DNA from: a virus
DNA: 22,079 nucleotides
IMG/VR virus record: IMGVR_UViG_3300028735_000330
Coordinates: 1-22,079 of that record
Strand: one strand, 5' to 3'
Positions 177-19,770 of the stretch are shown one piece after another (within the stretch, counting starts at the first letter, position 1; every line of letters begins with the position of its first letter). The position numbers and the translations under genes were made by a program. The notes beneath the pieces are model-generated. The model searched no databases and was not told the DNA's origin. It worked only from the letters and a program-made list of their open reading frames with translations.

Positions 177-1553
177 ATGAAAAATAGCGTCCTGTTTCTC
201 AGCCGCAAGGGGGAGACGCTGCCGGTGGTCCGCCGGCTGCGCCGCGAGGGGATACCGGCAGAGATTTACCTGCACGACCTCCGTTATGCCAACGGCTATA
301 AGAACATCTTGCCCAAGGTAGGACAAGACGGCCTGGTGGCGGCTGTGAAGCGCGCCGAAGCCATTGTCATTGACACCATCATCGCCAATGAGAAAACTCA
401 CCGGGACCTGGCCTTCCTGGAGAAATTCCGGATCTCCAAAAACGTCCCGGACATTTACGGCCGCCTGGGGGACATTCTCAAGCGCCCTCCCTGGAGCAAG
501 ATGGTTATCGGGGGGGGCGAAGAGGTCGCGGAATACGAACTCAAGAGGCCCAAGGGAATAGAGCTCGCGAAGAAGGCGGGCTTTTCCATTCCTGCCTATC
601 ACGAGTTCAAGAGTCTCAAGGACGCGGCCCGGTGGCTCAATTCCTCAGAAGCCAAGAAGGAGAAATACTACTTCAAGGCTGACGACAACGTGGCCCTGGA
701 CCTCACCTTCGACGGCACCCCGGAGCAGCTTATCGACTTCCTGACCACCAAGGCCCCGAAGCGCCTGGGGACCGACAAGGTGACCTGCATCCTCCAGGAA
801 GCTATCGAGGGCGACGTGGTGGAACTCAGCCGGGAGGGGTGGCGCCTCCCGGATGGGAAGATGGTTCACCCCAACTCTACCCTGGAAAACAAGAAGCTGC
901 ACTCCCGGGACTCCGGGCCCCGGGTGGGTTGCGCGGTGAGCACGGTCTGGAGAGACGCCGATTTCAGCGGGGTCAGCCATAAGCAGCTAGCCAAGGCGGC
1001 GAAGCTCCTGGGGGATTACATGGGGGCCATGGACGCCAACTGCATCATCACCCCGGACCTGCAGGCTTGGTTTTTGGAGTGGACCCTGCGCTTCGGCTAT
1101 TCGGCGCTCTACCTCCTGCTGTCCTTCATCATGCCTGGGAAGTTGGGCAATTTCTTCCTCGATTCCTTCCGGACTCTGTGGAAGGAGGGCTTCGTGGCCT
1201 CCCAGGTGCTCTCGCTCTTCCCGTTCCCGCCCACGGATAACAACCGCCTCGACTTCGTCTCGATGATCCAGGGCAACCTCATTTCCGGCCACAAGGTTGA
1301 TGAAAAGGACTTTTGGTGGATAGACGTCATGGAGGACGCCTACGGCAATTTCCGGGTGGCCGGCGCCGACGGCCTCATCGGGGTAGGGGTCGGCCATGAC
1401 GGGACCATGGAAGGCGCTATCCGCAAGGCCTATGAGAAGGTGAAGAAGATCAACCTCACCGGCAACAAGCAATTCTGGCCCCTCAGCGAACACCTTGAGG
1501 GTCATACTGACCGCTATAAAAAACTCCGCCGGTGGGGGGTGATCAATGCTTGA
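177..1553 (+). CDS. ATP-grasp protein, PurD (GAR synthetase)-like
   Basis: The 458-aa protein has ATP-grasp features in the order seen in phosphoribosylamine-glycine ligase: an N-terminal Rossmann-like part, a nucleotide lysine in YYFKADDN (about K167), LQEAIEGDVVELSREGW (about 205-222), an ENKKLHSRDSGPRVG stretch (about 237-251) recalling the PurD loop, and FLEWTLRFG (about 298-306) at the metal-binding Glu/Asn-Arg-Phe-Gly site. Such enzymes join a carboxylate to an amine or thiol through an acyl phosphate. The natural substrate here is unknown. True GAR synthesis is doubtful because the motifs are divergent and no purine genes are nearby. The ATG has no clear SD. The gene overlaps the next by 8 bases and heads the lysis cluster, so it is probably expressed late. 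Confidence 0.72.
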   Translation: MKNSVLFLSRKGETLPVVRRLRREGIPAEIYLHDLRYANGYKNILPKVGQDGLVAAVKRAEAIVIDTIIANEKTHRDLAFLEKFRISKNVPDIYGRLGDILKRPPWSKMVIGGGEEVAEYELKRPKGIELAKKAGFSIPAYHEFKSLKDAARWLNSSEAKKEKYYFKADDNVALDLTFDGTPEQLIDFLTTKAPKRLGTDKVTCILQEAIEGDVVELSREGWRLPDGKMVHPNSTLENKKLHSRDSGPRVGCAVSTVWRDADFSGVSHKQLAKAAKLLGDYMGAMDANCIITPDLQAWFLEWTLRFGYSALYLLLSFIMPGKLGNFFLDSFRTLWKEGFVASQVLSLFPFPPTDNNRLDFVSMIQGNLISGHKVDEKDFWWIDVMEDAYGNFRVAGADGLIGVGVGHDGTMEGAIRKAYEKVKKINLTGNKQFWPLSEHLEGHTDRYKKLRRWGVINA

Positions 1554-1986
1554 TAAGCTGTGCGAGGTTTTCGTGGAGGCCAATCTCAATACCGTAATTC
1601 TCACCTTCCTATTTTTGGTCATTTTCATTCAGGCACTCGGTAAAGGCGGCGGGAAGGTGCTTGTGGAACTCCTCAAGAGGCTATTGGGCCACGGGGGGGT
1701 GACGGTGGAGGTCAATCAGGCCAAAGAATCCCCCTGCAAAGGTGACCCCAAAAACTGCCCGGCCCATGCCAGTTCGGTGGACCCGAGTCTGTGCCCGGCG
1801 CACCAGGCCGAATATGAGCGTTCCCTACGGAACGAGAAAGAAATCAAGGACTTGTGGATAGCTCAAGAGGAGTTGCGGAAAGAGCTATCATCGAAGCTCG
1901 ATAGCCTGGTGGCCGTTAATCAGAAAATTCTCTTGGCTTTAGCGATGCCTTTGAGCAAACGCCAGAAGCTCTTGGAGGGGGATTAA
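1546..1986 (+). CDS. Small membrane-anchored coiled-coil protein in the lysis cluster
   Basis: This 146-aa protein has one hydrophobic segment at about residues 16-31, then a basic stretch, then a Cys/His-rich piece (CKGDPKNCPAH and DPSLCPAH, about 63-88), and a charged, probably coiled-coil tail (about 88-125). The start overlaps the end of the ATP-grasp gene by 8 bases (ATGCTTGA), which suggests coupled translation. It lies just upstream of the endolysin, so a role in lysis (holin accessory or spanin-like) is possible, but I do not recognise a named family. The paired C-x(n)-CPAH motifs could bind a metal. No lipobox is visible, which speaks against an outer-membrane spanin. Confidence 0.7.
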   Translation: MLDKLCEVFVEANLNTVILTFLFLVIFIQALGKGGGKVLVELLKRLLGHGGVTVEVNQAKESPCKGDPKNCPAHASSVDPSLCPAHQAEYERSLRNEKEIKDLWIAQEELRKELSSKLDSLVAVNQKILLALAMPLSKRQKLLEGD

Positions 1987-1988
1987 AC

Positions 1989-2684
1989 ATGGTTCTTCAG
2001 CTAGGTTCCCGGGGGGAGAACGTCAGGAAGGTGCAGCTGCAACTCCTGGCGTTGGGGTATGAGCTACCGAAGTTTGGGGCCGACGGGAGATTTGGGAAGG
2101 AAACAGAAGAGGCCGTCAGGGAGTTTCAGGAGGATAACGACCTCCAGGTGGACGGGATCGTTGGGCCTGAGACTCTGGACCTGCTGATGGATGAGGAGAT
2201 AGAGCCCGAGCCGACCCCTCAACCCAAGCCTGCCACGGTGACGCCGGCCAAGGGTGACCCGGCGTGGCTCACCTGGGCCTTGAGCAAGTTGGGGGATGCT
2301 GAGATCCCGGGGCCGGGGGACAACCCGGAGATCGTCTCCTGGATGAAGCTGACCTCCCTTCCCCCCTCCATGCGCCACGATGCCACGGCCTGGTGCTCCG
2401 TGTTCGTCAACGCCGGCTTCGAGCTTAACGGCTACAAGGGCACCGGTTCGGCGGACGCTGGCAGTTGGCTGAATTGGGGGCATGCGGTTGGTCCCGTGCG
2501 GGGAGCCGTGGCGGTCTTTGCCCGGCCAGGCGGTCACCACGTCGCTTTCCTGCTCCGTGACCTGGGGGATAGCGTCGAGGTCGTGGGTGGCAATCAGGGC
2601 GACGAGGTTTGCAAGAAGGTTTACAGCAAGGATGGATCGCTGCGCTTGCTCGCCTACCGGGGGCCGAAAGGGTGGCCGGCATGA
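1989..2684 (+). CDS. Endolysin: peptidoglycan-binding domain plus CHAP-like (TIGR02594-type) peptidase
   Basis: This 231-aa protein degrades peptidoglycan at the end of infection. Residues 1-67 form a PG_binding_1 domain (LGSRGENVRKVQ, FGKETEEAVREFQ, DGIVGPETLDLLM). A Pro-rich linker (about 72-88) follows. Residues about 90-231 form a Cys/His catalytic domain with AWCSVFVN (C136), GGHHVAFLL (H183/H184) and GGNQGD (N202), the pattern of the TIGR02594 CHAP-like family. There is no signal peptide, so export should depend on the downstream holin. The stop is shared with the holin start in ATGA. Family assignment is firm; which peptidoglycan bond is cut cannot be read. Confidence 0.9.
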   Translation: MVLQLGSRGENVRKVQLQLLALGYELPKFGADGRFGKETEEAVREFQEDNDLQVDGIVGPETLDLLMDEEIEPEPTPQPKPATVTPAKGDPAWLTWALSKLGDAEIPGPGDNPEIVSWMKLTSLPPSMRHDATAWCSVFVNAGFELNGYKGTGSADAGSWLNWGHAVGPVRGAVAVFARPGGHHVAFLLRDLGDSVEVVGGNQGDEVCKKVYSKDGSLRLLAYRGPKGWPA

Positions 2685-2980
2685 CTTTCCGACAGGAAGT
2701 GGGACGGCTCATCCTGATAGGCGCCATTGTTTACTGCGCCGGGTTGACGCTCATCCTGGCCGCGGCGACCTGGGCTCATTGTGAGGTTTCCCAACCTGTC
2801 CGGGATATTGTGATCATCATCCTTACCTGGTTCACCACGAAGGCTGGCACGGTGATCGACCATCAGTTCGGCTCTTCTCAAGGGAGTGAGGATAAAACCA
2901 ATTTTCTTATGAAAGGGGTTGCCTCGAATGGCACGCAGAAAGAATCTCCTGCCCCCCCTGGTCCCGAAATGAGGAAATGA
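2681..2980 (+). CDS. Holin-like small membrane protein
   Basis: The start is ATG 2681, which overlaps the endolysin stop in ATGA; the longer open frame upstream lies inside the endolysin. The 99-aa product has two hydrophobic segments (about residues 9-31 and 42-57) separated by a short loop (HCEVSQPVRD), and a polar, charged C-terminal tail ending in PEMRK. Size, two membrane spans, charged tail and direct coupling to an endolysin match class II-type holins, which open the inner membrane for the lysin. The call rests on topology and position, not on a sequence motif. Confidence 0.75.
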   Translation: MTFRQEVGRLILIGAIVYCAGLTLILAAATWAHCEVSQPVRDIVIIILTWFTTKAGTVIDHQFGSSQGSEDKTNFLMKGVASNGTQKESPAPPGPEMRK

Positions 2981-3034
2981 ATCATACCAAGTAGCCGTCA
3001 AACAAGTAATTTTTTGTGGCACGGCTTGCCCAAG

Positions 3035-3052
3035 CGCAGGCTGAAGCCTGCG
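3035..3052. repeat. Short REP-like hairpin
   Basis: CGCAGGC (3035-3041) and GCCTGCG (3046-3052) form a perfect 7-bp stem with a TGAA loop. It lies in the 2981-3099 gap between the holin and the MT-A70 gene. The sequence resembles short palindromic repeats common between bacterial genes. No T-tract follows, so it is not a standard terminator. Only one copy is present in this window. Confidence 0.45.
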
Positions 3053-3099
3053 GCTAAGTTGACCAAATATTCTGAGTCGATTGAGGCGGTGCGTGGTAA

Positions 3100-3660
3100 T
3101 TGGAAGTGATGGAAGGTAGAGAATATCGCACCATCCTCATTGACCCTCCTTGGCAGGAAACGGGCGGGGGTCGGATCAAGAGGGGTGCTGATAGGCATTA
3201 CCAGGTCATGAGCACCCCGGAGATCATTGCCGTCATTCTGCGGTGCGAACTCTTCCGGCCAACTCCGTCGGCCCACCTCTACCTGTGGGTGACCAATAAT
3301 TTCCTGCCAGATGGCCTGCTGGTGGTGCAGGCCCTGGGGTTCCGTTACAAGACCCTACTCACCTGGTCCAAAGACCGGTTCGGCCTGGGCCAGTATTTCC
3401 GGGGCCAGACAGAGCACATGATTTTTGCTACCAAAGGACCCCACCTGCCCGCTAAGACCAAGAATCAACCAACTCTTATCAAGGCCAAACGGGGCCGTCA
3501 TTCTGCCAAACCAGAGGCGGCCTATAGCCTCATTGAGGCGGTCTCACCGGCCCCATACCTGGAGCTATTTGCTCGCACCCCTCGGCCAGGCTGGGACTGC
3601 TGGGGCGAGGAGGTTCCGCCTGGCAAAGGGTTGTTTGACGGCCTGGAGCTAACAACATAA
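3100..3660 (+). CDS. MT-A70 family DNA adenine-N6 methyltransferase
   Basis: This protein of up to 186 aa carries the hallmark ILIDPPW near the N-terminus (residues about 12-18), then MSTPEI, LYLWVTNNFLPDGL, a TWSK segment, EHMIFATKG, and SPAPYLELFARTPRPGWDCWG at the C-terminal end. Together these are the conserved blocks of phage and bacterial MT-A70 enzymes, which transfer a methyl group from S-adenosylmethionine to adenine N6. Translation may start at TTG 3100, GTG 3106 or ATG 3109; no SD clearly decides. There is no restriction nuclease beside it, so it is a solitary modification enzyme, likely protecting phage DNA or altering gene control. Codon use is GC-rich like the late genes, unlike the AT-rich methyltransferase further right. 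Confidence 0.9.
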   Translation: MEVMEGREYRTILIDPPWQETGGGRIKRGADRHYQVMSTPEIIAVILRCELFRPTPSAHLYLWVTNNFLPDGLLVVQALGFRYKTLLTWSKDRFGLGQYFRGQTEHMIFATKGPHLPAKTKNQPTLIKAKRGRHSAKPEAAYSLIEAVSPAPYLELFARTPRPGWDCWGEEVPPGKGLFDGLELTT

Positions 3661-3690: not shown

Positions 3691-4089
3691 TTAGGCATTG
3701 GCCGCCTGTTCGTCCAAGACCTTATTCACGATCCGGCGATATTTGGGATCGGAGAAGTATTTCTTGGAGTTCTCTATCACCCGCCGGAGGACGGACATGC
3801 CCACCGGATTCAGATTGGTCACCTTGATCAGGCGGTTGAGGTCGTCCCCAGGGAGGTCTCTTAGAAGCTGGCCGAAAGCCGCATTAAAGAACGGGGAGGC
3901 AAAGACGCCAACCCCCTGGAAGTCCAATTCCACCGGCCGGCCCGCCTTCAACTCCGGGAGGATCAGGTCATGGACCTTTTGCCCGTCGTCCAGGGTAATG
4001 CAGTCCTCCCCGATCAAGGTGTGAACCTCAATTTTCATGCTTTTATGTGGCCGTATCTCCCAAGAACGGATATGTCTTGTCATTTTCAT
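3691..4089 (-). CDS. STAS-like DUF4325 domain protein
   Basis: This 132-aa protein has the DUF4325 pattern: an alternating strand-helix fold with VELDFQGVGVFASPFFNAAF (about residues 53-72), LLRDLPGDDL and a final helix with VLRRVIENSKKYF. In the family the F-x(n)-SSFxNxxxG segment is the core of a STAS-like fold. DUF4325 proteins usually occur with signalling or conflict-type genes; their biochemical role is not settled. The start ATG 4087-4089 lies 1 base after the methyltransferase stop, with an AGAGG SD inside that gene's last codons, so the two are co-translated. An internal ATG at about residue 18 has a poorer SD. This is the last gene of the minus-strand cassette. Confidence 0.75.
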   Translation of the reverse strand: MKMTRHIRSWEIRPHKSMKIEVHTLIGEDCITLDDGQKVHDLILPELKAGRPVELDFQGVGVFASPFFNAAFGQLLRDLPGDDLNRLIKVTNLNPVGMSVLRRVIENSKKYFSDPKYRRIVNKVLDEQAANA

Positions 4090-4090
4090 T

Positions 4091-5641
4091 CTACCTCTTT
4101 ATAAGAGTAAGAATAGATTCTCTGAGTTTATAACTTCTGATTTGGCCTGACCTGCGAACCCTGGCCTTTTCGATCTTTTCAATCTCTAGTCCTAAATCCA
4201 AGCCGATTCTGGCGAGTAGCAAATCAGTTGGTACATAAACATCAGCAATGAGGCTATCTCCAACGACTAAAATGAATCTGCTGCCCGATTTTAGTGAGGA
4301 GACAACATTTTTCATAACTTTATACATATCGTCAAAATATTTATGGACGATATACGGCATATCATGACGTCTATAAGCGCCGCGCCTCTTAATGTTTGCT
4401 TTGATATTTTTTCTAATTTCCTCAAGCCAATCATTGGAATACGATGAACGTGATTCTGAGAAATCTCTAATTAAGCCCTTTGATACATTATCGCAAACCA
4501 CCATATCATCTTTTATTTTTTTTAGGTCAACTTGATTCTCGACAAAATCTAACCAACCCATTTCAATTTTATAGTTAATGACATAATCCAAACCATTCAT
4601 ATAAGGAGGAGAGGTAATTACAAGATCGAATTGTTGATTATGCTGAAAATCCATAGCATTAGTTAAGGCGATATGGCTCTCGGTATGAATGAAATTACTA
4701 TAATCATCTTGAATGAGTTTTAAATCATCAGCTATTTGAGTTACCTTCTGTTCAAGCAGCACAAGAGGAGTGTCATCATAAACCCTTTTACTTTTGGCGT
4801 ATCCTAGGCATGGGCTGCGCTTGAGATTACTACAATCAATTAGGATGGAAGAAAACGCCATCTTTAGGAGATTCTTAATCTTTGTCTTGTCGCTTCTTGA
4901 TTTAATAGACTCAATACCACCCTTCAAAAGCTCCAAATTTTTTAAGACTCCGGGGTTGAAGTGAGAGGTAGATTGTAGGAATGAAGGAGCGGGTGAACGT
5001 CTATCTTTTGGCATCTCATGGTAAGTTCTAATAAGATATGTCGGGGATACATCCCAAGAATTGACCTTCACATCGGCAATAAATTGTAGGAGGGGATTTA
5101 GCTCTGTCCCAAAAGAGGGAAACCCATTGATTTTCGACTGAACTAAAACCGTTCCACACCCAGAAAATGGGTCTAAAATTATAGGATTGGCGTACTCATT
5201 TTTATATTGGTCAAAAATGGATTGGACAAAAGACGCTGAGAATCCTTGAACATATGGTGCCCAGCGGTGAATACGTTCATTAACATTTGGGGTGAACTGG
5301 ATCGGCTGTCGATTCTCTATAATTTCAATACCAAGTTTTTTTAGATAGGGTTGGGCGTCCGATTCAGCAGAGCCGCCCTTTTTGGGTGAGTTAAATATAT
5401 TAAGCTGTCTGGCATTGAGATCGCTATGGCTACCTTCTTCCAACACGGCCACATCTTCCAAAAAGGATGCCTGGTGGAGGCGCACTCTTTTTAAGTCTTC
5501 AACCACAACGACATTCCCCCGAGAGAGTTTAGCAAAAGAGAACCAGTTTAGTCCAATCCCATTGCCCAGCTTGGTATAAAGTATCCATCTCTCTTGCCAA
5601 GTCAGGGTCATACCTGAAAACGTCTTCCCGCGGAAATCCAA
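4091..5641 (-). CDS. DNA methyltransferase (N4-cytosine/N6-adenine class)
   Basis: This open frame of 516 aa carries motif I as LDPFSGCGTVLVQ (about residues 155-167), preceded by IHRWAPYVQGFSASF, and motif IV as VITSPPYMNGLDYV (about 339-352), followed by a C-terminal strand FILVVGDSLIADVYVPTD. FSGCGT binds S-adenosylmethionine and TSPPY is the catalytic loop of amino-methyltransferases. The roughly 170 residues between the motifs probably hold target recognition. The start is uncertain: the first 37 codons overlap another plausible ORF (5529-5840), and homologous structure begins only near residue 110. Base composition is clearly AT-richer than the flanks, a sign of transfer. No nuclease gene is adjacent; the partner is the DUF4325 protein. 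Confidence 0.85.
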   Translation of the reverse strand: MDFRGKTFSGMTLTWQERWILYTKLGNGIGLNWFSFAKLSRGNVVVVEDLKRVRLHQASFLEDVAVLEEGSHSDLNARQLNIFNSPKKGGSAESDAQPYLKKLGIEIIENRQPIQFTPNVNERIHRWAPYVQGFSASFVQSIFDQYKNEYANPIILDPFSGCGTVLVQSKINGFPSFGTELNPLLQFIADVKVNSWDVSPTYLIRTYHEMPKDRRSPAPSFLQSTSHFNPGVLKNLELLKGGIESIKSRSDKTKIKNLLKMAFSSILIDCSNLKRSPCLGYAKSKRVYDDTPLVLLEQKVTQIADDLKLIQDDYSNFIHTESHIALTNAMDFQHNQQFDLVITSPPYMNGLDYVINYKIEMGWLDFVENQVDLKKIKDDMVVCDNVSKGLIRDFSESRSSYSNDWLEEIRKNIKANIKRRGAYRRHDMPYIVHKYFDDMYKVMKNVVSSLKSGSRFILVVGDSLIADVYVPTDLLLARIGLDLGLEIEKIEKARVRRSGQIRSYKLRESILTLIKR

Positions 5642-5840
5642 CAGGTTGAATTGTGCCTTCCTCCCCAGTCATTAAACGTTTAAAATAGGTATCGTCTGTA
5701 ATGTAAACCCCCCGCTCCGTCTCCTCCCATACACGGCGAATCAGAGGCACACCTCCAAAAGCCCTAACAATCACTAAATCACCCCTCATAATGGCCACCT
5801 CTCCGTTGAGATGGGCCAATTTTAGCTGGACTTTTTTCAT
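5529..5840 (-). CDS. Small hypothetical protein at the head of the methyltransferase cassette
   Basis: This 103-aa ORF starts at ATG 5840 with an AAAGGA SD about 10 bases upstream. It begins with a basic N-terminus, then MRGDLVIVRAFGGVPLIRRVW, a strand-rich piece that could be a small SH3/KOW-like barrel, and ends in LYQAGQWDWTKLVLF. Amino-acid composition is balanced, so it looks real, but I do not recognise the family. It overlaps the annotated N-terminus of the methyltransferase by 113 bases in another frame. Either the methyltransferase starts further downstream or the junction contains a frameshift. GC content is higher than in the methyltransferase body. Confidence 0.5.
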   Translation of the reverse strand: MKKVQLKLAHLNGEVAIMRGDLVIVRAFGGVPLIRRVWEETERGVYITDDTYFKRLMTGEEGTIQPVGFPREDVFRYDPDLAREMDTLYQAGQWDWTKLVLFC

Positions 5841-6073: not shown

Positions 6074-6133
6074 TTAGGTTCAGGGTCTAGTGGGCGTAGG
6101 CCTGTCGGGGTTCGAGTCCCCGCTTCGGCACCA
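6074..6133 (+). other. tRNA-Leu(CAG) 3' segment serving as attachment core
   Basis: From the anticodon stem to the 3' end this reads as a class II tRNA: anticodon stem ttagg/tctag (6074-6078/6086-6090, allowing G-T pairs), loop TTCAGGG with anticodon CAG (6081-6083), a long variable arm (about 6091-6105), T arm CGGGG-TTCGAGT-CCCCG (6106-6122), acceptor strand CTTCGGC (6123-6129), discriminator A and encoded CCA (6131-6133). The D arm and the 5' acceptor strand (expected GCCGAAG) are absent, so it is not a functional tRNA gene. On integration it would restore the 3' part of the host tRNA-Leu gene. About 60 bp of identity with the host is expected. Confidence 0.85.
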
Positions 6134-6141
6134 ATAAAATC

Positions 6142-6171
6142 AAGGGGTTAGGGCTCATGCCTTAGCCCCTT
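6142..6171. terminator. Bidirectional hairpin terminator at the end of int
   Basis: A 12-bp stem with two G-T pairs (6142-6153 with 6160-6171) closes a CTCATG loop. The plus strand continues with TTCTTTTT and the minus strand with TTGATTTTATT. The hairpin overlaps the last codons and stop of the integrase, so it should end the minus-strand recombination operon and also shield int from late plus-strand transcription. Confidence 0.65.
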
Positions 6172-7288
6172 TCTTTTTGGAGGAGGAATTTGGTAGCGTT
6201 TTGGTAGCACAAGATGTTGTGGTATGGAGGAGGCCGTTGAGGGAGTTCACCCCGGCCTCAAGGTATTCCGGGGCAAGGTGGGCATATCGCATGGTGGTCT
6301 GAATATCTTTATGCCCCAGGAGTTCCTGGACCTCTTTTATGGGCCTGCCCTTCATTACCAAGTGAGAGGCGAAGGTGTGCCTCAGGTCGTGGAAGTGGAA
6401 GTTTTCAATCCCGGCCCGCCGGCAGGCGCCGCCAAAGGCCGAACGAATATCCAACAGGCGTTTCCCATCCTCGTTACAAAAGATGTGCTGCGATTTTAGT
6501 TGGTTTTTGCGGCGCAACTTCTTGAAGACCCCTGCCAGATCGTCACTCACCGGGATGGTGCGGGGTTCGCCATTCTTGGTGAGCCAACCAGGGAGGCGGA
6601 TTTTCCCGGCCACCACCATTTCCCAGGTGAGGCCAAAAAGTTCCCCCCGGCGCATCCCGGTCAAGAGGGCGGTTTCCACCAGGGGCCGCAGATGAGAATT
6701 GCAGGCCTCCAGGAGGCGGGGAATTTCCTCTGCCGTCAAAAACCGCAACCGAGCGTTATTGTGTTTTTCCTTGAGGGATTCGGCATCTTCCTCCTTGAAG
6801 GGGTTGGCCGGAACCAGCTTGGCTTTTTTGGCATACTTGAACATGGAGCTAATAACGGCCAGTTCATTGTTCCAGGTTGCCAAGGCCCGGGGTTTGCCTC
6901 CCCGGGCAGGAGTGTTAAGTCTCTCCGTTTTAAAACGCACTAAATCAGTATAAGTGACCTGCGCGGCAACCTTGGCTCCACTAAGGGTTTTGGTTTGCAG
7001 GAGACCCCGGAGAACAAGGGCTTTGACATAATATCCCTTTTCACGGGTGCAGGTTTGCAGATATTCCTCGGCCAGTTCCCCTAGGGTTAAATCGGGCTCC
7101 GGTGTCTCTGGCGGCTCGATCAATTCCCAATATTGCCCGGTATCCAAGGCATATTCTACCTTGCGCTTCCATTCCGAGGCGGGGGTTTTCTTTTTGTAGT
7201 TTCGGACCTTCTCTTTGCCATCGGGATCTCGCCAACCAACCCGGAAGGTGATTCCCTTTTTCCCAGCAATTTCTTTTATGTAAGCCAT
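6155..7288 (-). CDS. int: Tyrosine integrase
   Basis: This 377-aa site-specific recombinase should integrate the phage into the host tRNA-Leu gene and excise it. It has an N-terminal arm-binding domain (about 1-60, with GITFRVGWRDPDGKEK), a SAM-like core-binding domain (about 65-165) and the catalytic domain with R213 in TGMRRGE, a lysine near K238, H300-x-x-R303 in HDLRH, H326 in LLGHKD and the nucleophile Y335 in MRYAHL. All active-site residues are present. The start ATG 7288 follows AAGGAGATGCC, a strong SD. It is the last gene of the minus-strand operon and lies 22 bases from the tRNA-derived attP core, the usual placement. Confidence 0.97.
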   Translation of the reverse strand: MAYIKEIAGKKGITFRVGWRDPDGKEKVRNYKKKTPASEWKRKVEYALDTGQYWELIEPPETPEPDLTLGELAEEYLQTCTREKGYYVKALVLRGLLQTKTLSGAKVAAQVTYTDLVRFKTERLNTPARGGKPRALATWNNELAVISSMFKYAKKAKLVPANPFKEEDAESLKEKHNNARLRFLTAEEIPRLLEACNSHLRPLVETALLTGMRRGELFGLTWEMVVAGKIRLPGWLTKNGEPRTIPVSDDLAGVFKKLRRKNQLKSQHIFCNEDGKRLLDIRSAFGGACRRAGIENFHFHDLRHTFASHLVMKGRPIKEVQELLGHKDIQTTMRYAHLAPEYLEAGVNSLNGLLHTTTSCATKTLPNSSSKKKGAKA

Positions 7289-17487: not shown

Positions 17488-18633
17488 ATGCCTACCCACG
17501 AGGTGCCTAAGTATATAAATGAGTTTTGGACATCTAAACAAAGACAGGCATCATCTATTCATGAGATATCATATAGAGCTTGTTTTAAACCTCAATTGCC
17601 ACAATTTTTTATTCAATTATTATCTAGCGATAACGATGTGGTTTATGATCCTTTCTCTGGAAGGGGCACAACACCGATAGAAGCCGCGCTTTTGGGTAGG
17701 CAAGTTATATCTAATGATATAAATCCATTAAGCGAAATATTGACCCGTCCTCGGTTAATGATACCTGATTTTAAAGATGTTGAAAGAAGGCTTAATACTA
17801 TCAATTATAAAAAGCAAGCCAAAGCTGACATAGATTTGTCTATGTTCTATCATCCAAAAACGGAAAGCGAAATAGTTTCTTTGCGTGAATATCTTATAGA
17901 AAAGGATAATTACGGTGTCTCAGATGAGATTGATAATTGGATAAGGATGGTCGCAACAAATAGACTAACTGGACATTCAAAAGGTTTTTTTTCGGTTTAT
18001 ACTCTACCTCCAAATCAGGCCGTTTCTCCTGATAAACAGATAATGATTAACATAAAACTAAACCAAACACCTGATTATAGAGACACTAAAAAATTAATAT
18101 TAAACAAAACGAAAAGTTTGTTGAGGAATTTAACTGCTAAGCAAAAAGATTCTCTTAGAAGAATTGGAGGGACTGCACTCTTCTTTACCGAAGACGCAAG
18201 GAATACACCAGAGATAAAAGATGAAACGGTGCAATTAGTAGTTACATCTCCACCGTTTTTAGACACAGTTCAATATTCTAAAGATAATTGGCTGCGCTGT
18301 TGGTTCAATAATATAGATATACAAAATGTTTCTGAAAGAATAACAATGAGCAATAAGGTAGAAGAATGGACTTATGTCATGAATGGTGTTTTTGCAGAAT
18401 TATATCGTGTCTTAAAAAAGGATGGTTGGATAGCCTTTGAAGTTGGTGAAGTAAGGCGAGGGAAATTAAAGCTTGATGAATATATTGTCCCCTTGGGGTT
18501 AAATAATGGCTTTAGTTGCGCCGGAATATTAATAAATACACAAGTTTTTACTAAAACATCAAATATATGGGGGATTAAAAATATGGAGATCGGAACAAAT
18601 ACCAATAGGATAGTTATATTTAAAAAACCTTGA
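17488..18633 (+). CDS. Second AT-rich DNA methyltransferase
   Basis: This 381-aa protein carries motif I as YDPFSGRGTTPIEAALLG (about 53-70) and motif IV as VTSPPFLDTVQYSKDNW (about 252-268), with a final strand-rich part (WIAFEVGEVRRG). The order and spacing match solitary amino-methyltransferases of the same class as the 516-aa enzyme on the left, though they are not near-identical. Long stretches of AT-rich codons contrast sharply with the flanking genes, a clear sign of recent acquisition. There is no SD before ATG 17488. No restriction nuclease or specificity subunit is beside it. Likely role: modification of phage DNA against host restriction. Confidence 0.88.
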   Translation: MPTHEVPKYINEFWTSKQRQASSIHEISYRACFKPQLPQFFIQLLSSDNDVVYDPFSGRGTTPIEAALLGRQVISNDINPLSEILTRPRLMIPDFKDVERRLNTINYKKQAKADIDLSMFYHPKTESEIVSLREYLIEKDNYGVSDEIDNWIRMVATNRLTGHSKGFFSVYTLPPNQAVSPDKQIMINIKLNQTPDYRDTKKLILNKTKSLLRNLTAKQKDSLRRIGGTALFFTEDARNTPEIKDETVQLVVTSPPFLDTVQYSKDNWLRCWFNNIDIQNVSERITMSNKVEEWTYVMNGVFAELYRVLKKDGWIAFEVGEVRRGKLKLDEYIVPLGLNNGFSCAGILINTQVFTKTSNIWGIKNMEIGTNTNRIVIFKKP

Positions 18634-18702: not shown

Positions 18703-18951
18703 TTAAGGATTTAACCTTCGTTTATTTTTTCCCTTCCTCTTCCCCATATTAATAATGGCCCGCACCGCTTTCGGGTCTTTCTCCAGGGACTCCAAAAGGA
18801 GCCTGACAGTTCCAGATATGGCCCGGCGCCCCGTTTCCCAATGGCAGATAGCGCCTTGCGTGACGCCTAATGCCCGGGCCGCAAGCGTCTGAGTGGGAAA
18901 GAGCTTTTTCCTCCTGGCCGTAAATTCCTCTGCGGTCATGGTTTCCCTCAT
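18703..18951 (-). CDS. XRE-family helix-turn-helix regulator
   Basis: This 82-aa protein has a clear Cro/CI-type HTH at about residues 20-60 (TQTLAARALGVTQGAICHWETGRRAISGTV), then a basic C-terminus (GKRKGKNKRRLNP). The ATG overlaps the recombinase stop in ATGA, so it is translated with the recombinase. A second in-frame ATG four codons on has its own SD and could be the true start. The form resembles antitoxin-like or autoregulatory HTH proteins. As the last gene of the operon it may control the operon or the neighbouring recombinase. Confidence 0.8.
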   Translation of the reverse strand: MRETMTAEEFTARRKKLFPTQTLAARALGVTQGAICHWETGRRAISGTVRLLLESLEKDPKAVRAIINMGKRKGKNKRRLNP

Positions 18952-19538
18952 GGCTTAATTCTTAACTCCTTCATAGCATTTTCAAGCTCATCGTCAACTA
19001 TATGAGCGTAAATCGTGGTGGTTTCGATATTGCTATGGCCCAAAGCCTTCTGGACCAGGCGAAGGTTCTTGGTGGCTCTTAACAAATCCGTGGCGAAGGT
19101 GTGGCGCAAGCTGTGGGGGTGAATATCTTTGACGATGCCGGCTTGCTCGGCCACGCGCTTGACCATGCGCCTCAGCCACCGATCATTTACCGGACGGCTG
19201 CCGTCAAGGGAGGTAAACAGTAGGTCACCGGACGGCGCCCCGTTACCGGGCCGGCGGGTGAGCCAGGCCCGGACCAGAGCCAGGTCGTCGGCGCTCAGCC
19301 ACACAACCCGCTCCTTCCGGCCTTTCCCCCGTACCTTGAGCTTGCCGGATTTAAAATCCAGGTGCTTTATCTTTAACTCCCGGGCCTCCCTGGCGCGGAG
19401 TCCTGCATTAAGCAATAACCGGATAAGGGCCAGGTTCCGCAGGGCACTAAGGGAGTCGGATCGCTCCAACTCCCCTAGTATGCGGGCCTGTTCCTCCGGG
19501 TCCAAAACTTCTGGGATTCTCCGGGGGGCTCTTCTCAT
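18948..19538 (-). CDS. Single-domain tyrosine recombinase (XerC/D-like catalytic domain)
   Basis: With start ATG 19538 (SD GAGGAAGGG) the protein has 196 aa. It contains a complete catalytic set: R48 in AGLRAREA, a lysine in GKGRKER (72 or 75), H142-x-x-R145 in PHSLRHTF, H168 in ALGHSN and Y177 in TIYAHI. The core-binding N-terminal domain of Xer and integrases is missing; the longer open frame (to 19604) adds only 22 unrelated residues. It is thus a second recombinase, separate from int. It could resolve phage dimers or act on a different site. Small recombinases of this kind occur in phages, but their target is unknown. Confidence 0.88.
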   Translation of the reverse strand: MRRAPRRIPEVLDPEEQARILGELERSDSLSALRNLALIRLLLNAGLRAREARELKIKHLDFKSGKLKVRGKGRKERVVWLSADDLALVRAWLTRRPGNGAPSGDLLFTSLDGSRPVNDRWLRRMVKRVAEQAGIVKDIHPHSLRHTFATDLLRATKNLRLVQKALGHSNIETTTIYAHIVDDELENAMKELRIKP

Positions 19539-19551
19539 TTTCCCTTCCTCG

Positions 19552-19770
19552 TCAGGATTCCCCGCAGGGAAGTTCCTCTTTGGGCAAAACAATGCCAGTA
19601 TCAAAAGTCCTCTTGGCCACCACTGACCACGCTTGTTCTGGATAAAAGCGGGTCATGAAATCCTTGGCGGCCCGAAGATTTTTGGCCTGGACAAACTTGA
19701 CGCTGACCATGGTGCGGCCGGCGTCCTGATTGCTGTGAAAATCCTCCAGGTTAAAGGCAATGAATGTCAT
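19552..19770 (-). CDS. Small hypothetical protein
   Basis: This 72-aa protein starts at ATG 19770 with a strong GGAGGATAAGAA leader. It begins with a beta strand (MTFIAFNLEDFH), has a strand-helix unit VSVKFVQAKNLRAAKDFMTRFY, and ends GIVLPKEELP. The pattern suggests a compact beta-alpha-beta fold. I do not recognise a family. It lies 13 bases upstream of the single-domain recombinase start, so the two are co-expressed. Confidence 0.7.
   Translation of the reverse strand: MTFIAFNLEDFHSNQDAGRTMVSVKFVQAKNLRAAKDFMTRFYPEQAWSVVAKRTFDTGIVLPKEELPCGES

Follow-up and report, generated by a model that had tools for sequence, protein, structure and literature searches.

Why does a temperate phage keep a solitary DNA methyltransferase (MTase) gene and a gene for a STAS-like DUF4325 protein side by side next to its attachment site? 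The locus lies in a window of 22,079 nucleotides, a 22-kb virus record (IMGVR_UViG_3300028735_000330). The reading favored here, with a probability of roughly 0.6, is that of a counter-defence cassette put together from those halves of two host defence loci that confer immunity, a restriction-modification (R-M) operon and the VapKSC toxin-antitoxin operon.

The cassette consists of three minus-strand open reading frames (ORFs), namely P0003, a 103-aa ORF with no family match (5529-5840), the MTase (4091-5641 as called from a TTG) and the DUF4325 protein (3691-4089; PF14213, E=2e-20). They are placed between late-side genes on the plus strand (177-3660) and a minus-strand tyrosine integrase (6155-7288; PF00589, 7e-36) that shares 72-78% amino acid identity with integrases in three genomes belonging to the same class as G256, a genome discussed below. 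The plus-strand stretch 6075-6133 corresponds to the 3' part of tRNA-Leu(CAG), and its identity as the attP core is confirmed because the same stretch also abuts a related integrase gene of 74.6% DNA identity in another locus (L130). The first-pass annotation had described this arrangement correctly, including the small protein ahead of the MTase, the DUF4325 assignment, the orientation against the late genes and the proximity to attP, and its view of the slot as one for cargo of the defence or anti-defence sphere is supported. Its description of the cassette as AT-rich fits the MTase gene (39% GC) but not the P0003 ORF (46.5%) or the DUF4325 gene (56%), with the window at 54%. Only one phage is known with exactly this cassette, and an integrase-based search of IMG/VR for an intact relative of the phage returned distant integrases only. 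Elsewhere, the window encodes another orphan MTase of low GC content (34%; 17488-18633, plus strand; PADLOC MTase_II profile, E 1e-150), an MT-A70 MTase (3100-3660) and a second tyrosine-recombinase-like ORF of 218 aa (18948-19604, minus strand) with a helix-turn-helix (HTH) ORF (18703-18951) just downstream.

Homology identifies the DUF4325 protein as VapS, which is the STAS antitoxin in VapKSC defence. Specifically, VapS of PDB entry 9z7o (9z7o_A), from Escherichia sp. E4736, matches residues 15-130 with an E value of 2.8e-22, and the phage gene shares 84% DNA and 90% amino acid identity with vapS of a complete VapKSC operon (L081). In this system, described in June 2026 (EMBO J 2026, PMC13373217), VapS binds and blocks VapC, a PIN RNase toxin of the same operon. 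According to the published model, the ssDNA-activated GHKL kinase VapK phosphorylates VapS at Ser48, which frees VapC, and neutralisation is lost with VapS S48E or upon deletion of residues 94-116 (PMC13373217); the term DUF4325 is not used in that paper and methyltransferases are not mentioned. The phage protein keeps Ser48, the serine of FASPFF counted from the native start, as well as residues 94-115, which are near-identical to those of L081. It thereby shares with VapS of the Escherichia system the family, the STAS core, the Ser48 position and the C-terminal inhibitory region, but it is encoded in a phage, behind an MTase and without vapK or vapC, and carries an N-terminal extension. The native gene of 115 aa (3691-4038, minus strand) starts at ATG 4038, while the expressed ORF reaches ATG 4089 (132 aa), and the 17 residues in between are a deletion scar. 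HMMs for VapK and VapC, each built from nine sequences, detected neither gene in the window, where a probable 16-nt vapK scrap is the only trace of them; the phage therefore carries an antitoxin homologue without its toxin. When the predicted VapS structure (pLDDT 78.7, from few alignment rows) was compared with known folds, no match was significant; the STAS protein RsbS ranked third at E 0.32. The CapKS regulators likewise rely on a STAS protein with a phosphorylatable serine to control immunity (PMC13373217), but CapS has a winged-helix DNA-binding domain, whereas the 115 residues of phage VapS have no HTH family match.

The second component is an orphan amino-DNA methyltransferase of 471 aa (4091-5506, minus strand; N6_N4_Mtase, 3e-8) with the catalytic motifs DPFSGCGT and TSPPY, and its relatives indicate that it is the M of a GIY-YIG type II R-M family. 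These relatives occupy 52 loci, with identities of up to 71%, and a GIY-YIG gene of about 300 aa lies directly downstream of the MTase in 46 of the 49 that could be tested (45 detected by script, plus L030 with a match just beyond the script's distance limit). An HMM of this partner family found no such nuclease gene in the window, which leaves the MTase without the second half of a type II R-M system, and comparison of the partner with the PDB gave no informative match. The most likely start of the MTase is GTG 5506, which has GGGGGA upstream, because homologues start near there and the remnant of a leader gene begins there; TTG 5641 was rejected as the start on the same grounds. Orphan DNA methyltransferases of phages are well known as anti-restriction factors. 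The cassette resembles them in carrying an M without an R in a temperate phage and differs in that a remnant of the lost R can be identified, in whose slot an antitoxin is now encoded for expression.

The junctions between the genes record how the cassette was put together. The DUF4325 ORF begins with MKMTRHIRSWEI, where nucleases have RARTTKQIRSWEIPR, so that nine codons of the GIY-YIG gene (TRHIRSWEI; 4054-4080, minus strand) persist at precisely the position of the nuclease start in relatives. Scored with a position-specific matrix from 40 nucleases, this site reached 26.6 bits and ranked first among the 44,004 six-frame 17-mers of the window, with the next at 18.0 and the maximum of 60 shuffled sets at 21.7. 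A 16-nt stretch directly before the vapS start codon (4040-4055, minus strand) links the remnant in frame to vapS, and 15 of its positions agree with the 3' part of vapK in G256 (L081), in the same strand and order, 138 nt upstream of vapS there; as 1 of 300 shuffles matched equally well, its origin as a vapK scrap is probable, not certain. With the nuclease gone except for these nine codons, translation of VapS would start in the slot that the enzyme once occupied. The first-pass annotation had proposed co-translation of the two genes, and the MTase stop TAG, followed after 1 nt by the ATG of the DUF4325 ORF and with GAGG upstream, makes translational coupling plausible. At its other end, the MTase has taken its GTG start and first ~24 codons (5435-5506, minus strand) from a second leader gene by in-frame fusion: its first ~26 residues (EDLKRVRLHQASFLEDVAVLEE) are 69% identical over 26 aa to this leader gene (lead2) in L144 (E 6e-4). 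The reading frame is kept at both fusions. Given the separate relationships of leader, MTase and vapS, the cassette is a mosaic of three sources, with which the differing GC contents of the three genes are in line. The harmful parts, namely nuclease, kinase and toxin, appear to have been deleted, leaving the protective halves of two defences.

For vapS, a likely source could be narrowed down among 345 sampled genomes from the phylum of a deltaproteobacterial MAG. The VapS of G256, encoded within a complete vapK-vapS-vapC operon, is 88% identical to the phage protein over the whole alignment, and the two genes agree at 297 of 353 DNA positions. This DNA identity extends from the base immediately ahead of the vapS start codon to just past the stop codon, where vapC would start. 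A search at class level, covering 29 genomes, returned G256 together with G318, which carries the closest chromosomal relative of P0003, and G369, G372 and G367, which carry the closest integrase relatives; because all of these fall in one class, it probably contains the host of the phage. An intact VapKSC occurs in only one of the 29 genomes, and a close copy of the GIY-YIG R-M system was found in none of them. In G256 (L095:5565-13481), a type I hsdRMS locus immediately precedes the VapKSC operon, and a decayed vapS in G064 (L096) likewise lies after hsdRMS.

The first-pass annotation had suspected that MTase and DUF4325 protein form a system of their own, possibly a modification-based switch. 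The genes are real, yet their pairing is not a conserved system: a DUF4325 gene lies near none of the 52 close MTase relatives, and the MTase of the cassette lies near none of the about 29 VapS loci, apart from one distant MTase in the defence locus of G256. A conserved MTase-DUF4325 system, described or undescribed, was rejected on this count. VapK and/or VapC adjoin 24 of the about 29 inspected VapS loci, and the others are a pseudogene (L082), a copy with proline at position 48 (L085), L134, a host locus (L159) and a fragment (L161). At the position of Ser48, the orphan DUF4325 protein of the viral locus L134 (L134:3001-3378 = L003:6001-6378) has glutamate (YAEPFF), like the S48E phosphomimic, which is unable to hold VapC; it may interfere in another way, such as by acting on VapK. 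In two further loci, L101:513-1494 (G026) and L099:3407-4431 (G062), vapS and vapC were found and vapK was not detected, and these are possibly two-gene variants of the system.

The available data are compatible with a model in which both halves of the cassette act as antidotes. As antidotes of defence systems are the only parts retained, counter-defence is the simplest explanation; the sequence itself shows the homologies, their boundaries, the scars, the preserved residues and purifying selection on vapS, while activity and specificity of the MTase, binding of VapC and a benefit to the phage are inferred. The orphan MTase would methylate phage DNA, and in lysogens host DNA too, so that the cognate GIY-YIG enzyme could not cut. 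Infection or induction would generate ssDNA, upon which host VapK would phosphorylate host VapS and free the toxic VapC. In turn, VapS made by the phage would recapture VapC, and it may also occupy VapK as a substrate, so that the neutralised toxin would allow the cell to survive long enough for the phage. Since phage VapS keeps Ser48, it may itself be inactivated by the host kinase, and protection would then depend on dose or on substrate competition. In this scenario, deletions removed the genes for nuclease, kinase and toxin, and VapS ended up in frame downstream of the start signal that had served the nuclease. In support of this reading, the small class with the closest integrase relatives also contains a complete VapKSC.

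An unlikely competitor is that the cassette is a decaying relic of cargo that once protected the lysogen as a complete R-M system and VapKSC, from which the costly killer parts were lost and whose leftovers have no role. Complete vapK-vapS-vapC operons do occur in five IMG/VR viral records (L135, L137, L138, L139 and L140), two of them with an integrase gene directly after the operon (L137 and L140), which indicates that vapS can also ride in phages as part of a defence rather than a counter-defence. The several deletion scars in the cassette and the existence of vapS pseudogenes in hosts (G064) would also suit decay. However, no reading frame is broken, the fused frames stay in phase downstream of a ribosome-binding site, and the missing parts are the harmful ones rather than a random selection. 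Selection on vapS likewise speaks against decay: 38 synonymous and 11 nonsynonymous codon differences separate the phage gene from that of G256 (dN about 0.05, dS about 0.92; dN/dS about 0.055). When the differences were polarised with G064 over 86 codons, an outgroup that is itself a pseudogene and yields small counts, 9 synonymous and 1 nonsynonymous changes fell on the phage branch and 16 and 10 on the G256 branch. The 9:1 ratio indicates that phage vapS is not decaying, even if part of the constraint may predate the loss of VapK and VapC.

Two other readings retain a function for the cassette but assign it differently. It may mainly serve the lysogen as an anti-addiction device that shields it from VapKSC borne by plasmids or prophages and from the loss of R-M plasmids, and the attP location and the strand opposite to the late genes would suit expression from a prophage, while VapKSC itself is carried by prophages. 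A role in the lysogen and one during infection look alike in the sequence, and the lysogen-specific version is considered rather improbable. Alternatively, VapS might have been rewired to bind and restrain the MTase until a VapK-like host kinase phosphorylates it upon DNA damage. VapS would then be a phospho-switch through which a host kinase that senses ssDNA steers the modification of phage DNA in response to damage, and this switch would have arisen by fusion of pieces from an R-M operon and from a toxin-antitoxin operon. The tight translational coupling of MTase and vapS fits this idea, as does the role of VapS as a phospho-switch in its home system (PMC13373217). Yet no second MTase-VapS pairing exists among the 52 loci of the MTase and the about 29 of VapS, the window has no kinase gene, and the phage protein, whose branch shows no burst of change, shares 90% identity with a VapS that is encoded next to its own VapC. 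Such a switch is conceivable but unsupported, and it must be regarded as very improbable.

The cassette may represent the first counter-defence directed against VapKSC. Phage antitoxins as such are known, such as AdfB of ICP1, which acts against DarTG, as well as T4 Dmd and pseudo-ToxI of phage TE, and the origin of such mimics has been called uncertain (PMC11481870). Like these, phage VapS is an antitoxin-like protein encoded without a toxin and proposed to rescue infection; in contrast to them, its putative target is the PIN RNase of VapKSC, and its descent from a host operon remains visible, together with the deletion scars. The new elements would thus be the VapKSC target, an assembly by trimming that is legible in the DNA, and the start signal of a lost nuclease that now makes an antitoxin. 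One route to an antitoxin mimic thereby becomes readable, in which vapS was captured from VapKSC, kinase and toxin were lost, and expression was gained via the start of the deleted nuclease.

The small ORF ahead of the MTase has a history of its own. Its AlphaFold prediction has a pLDDT of 41, and relatives with 78-80% DNA identity occur in G318 (L103) and in the viral contigs L144-L146, each with an MTase downstream. A second leader gene of about 100 aa usually lies between the P0003-family ORF and the MTase, although the MTase also follows without it. The MTases themselves differ: that of G318 has a Tsp45I-type nuclease, the leader of L144 is followed by a C5-like MTase, a further gene and a Vsr-like ORF, and the leaders of L145 and L146 precede MTases without a recognisable nuclease. 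In viral L145 (97-1494), the leader is kept together with a Tsp45I-type M that is 82% identical to that of G318, and the Tsp45I nuclease is absent; by this comparison, L145 is a second, parallel viral cassette without the restriction enzyme that the chromosome of G318 has. The two-gene leader (window 5529-5840; L103:8075-8700; L144:1943-2562; L145:97-363; L146:3998-4627; L143:6198-6808) precedes MTase genes of differing types and is possibly a mobile leader of R-M operons. Beside it, a divergent gene with the motif PPYVPYRT..NFLDSLK and an IS1-like transposase were observed.
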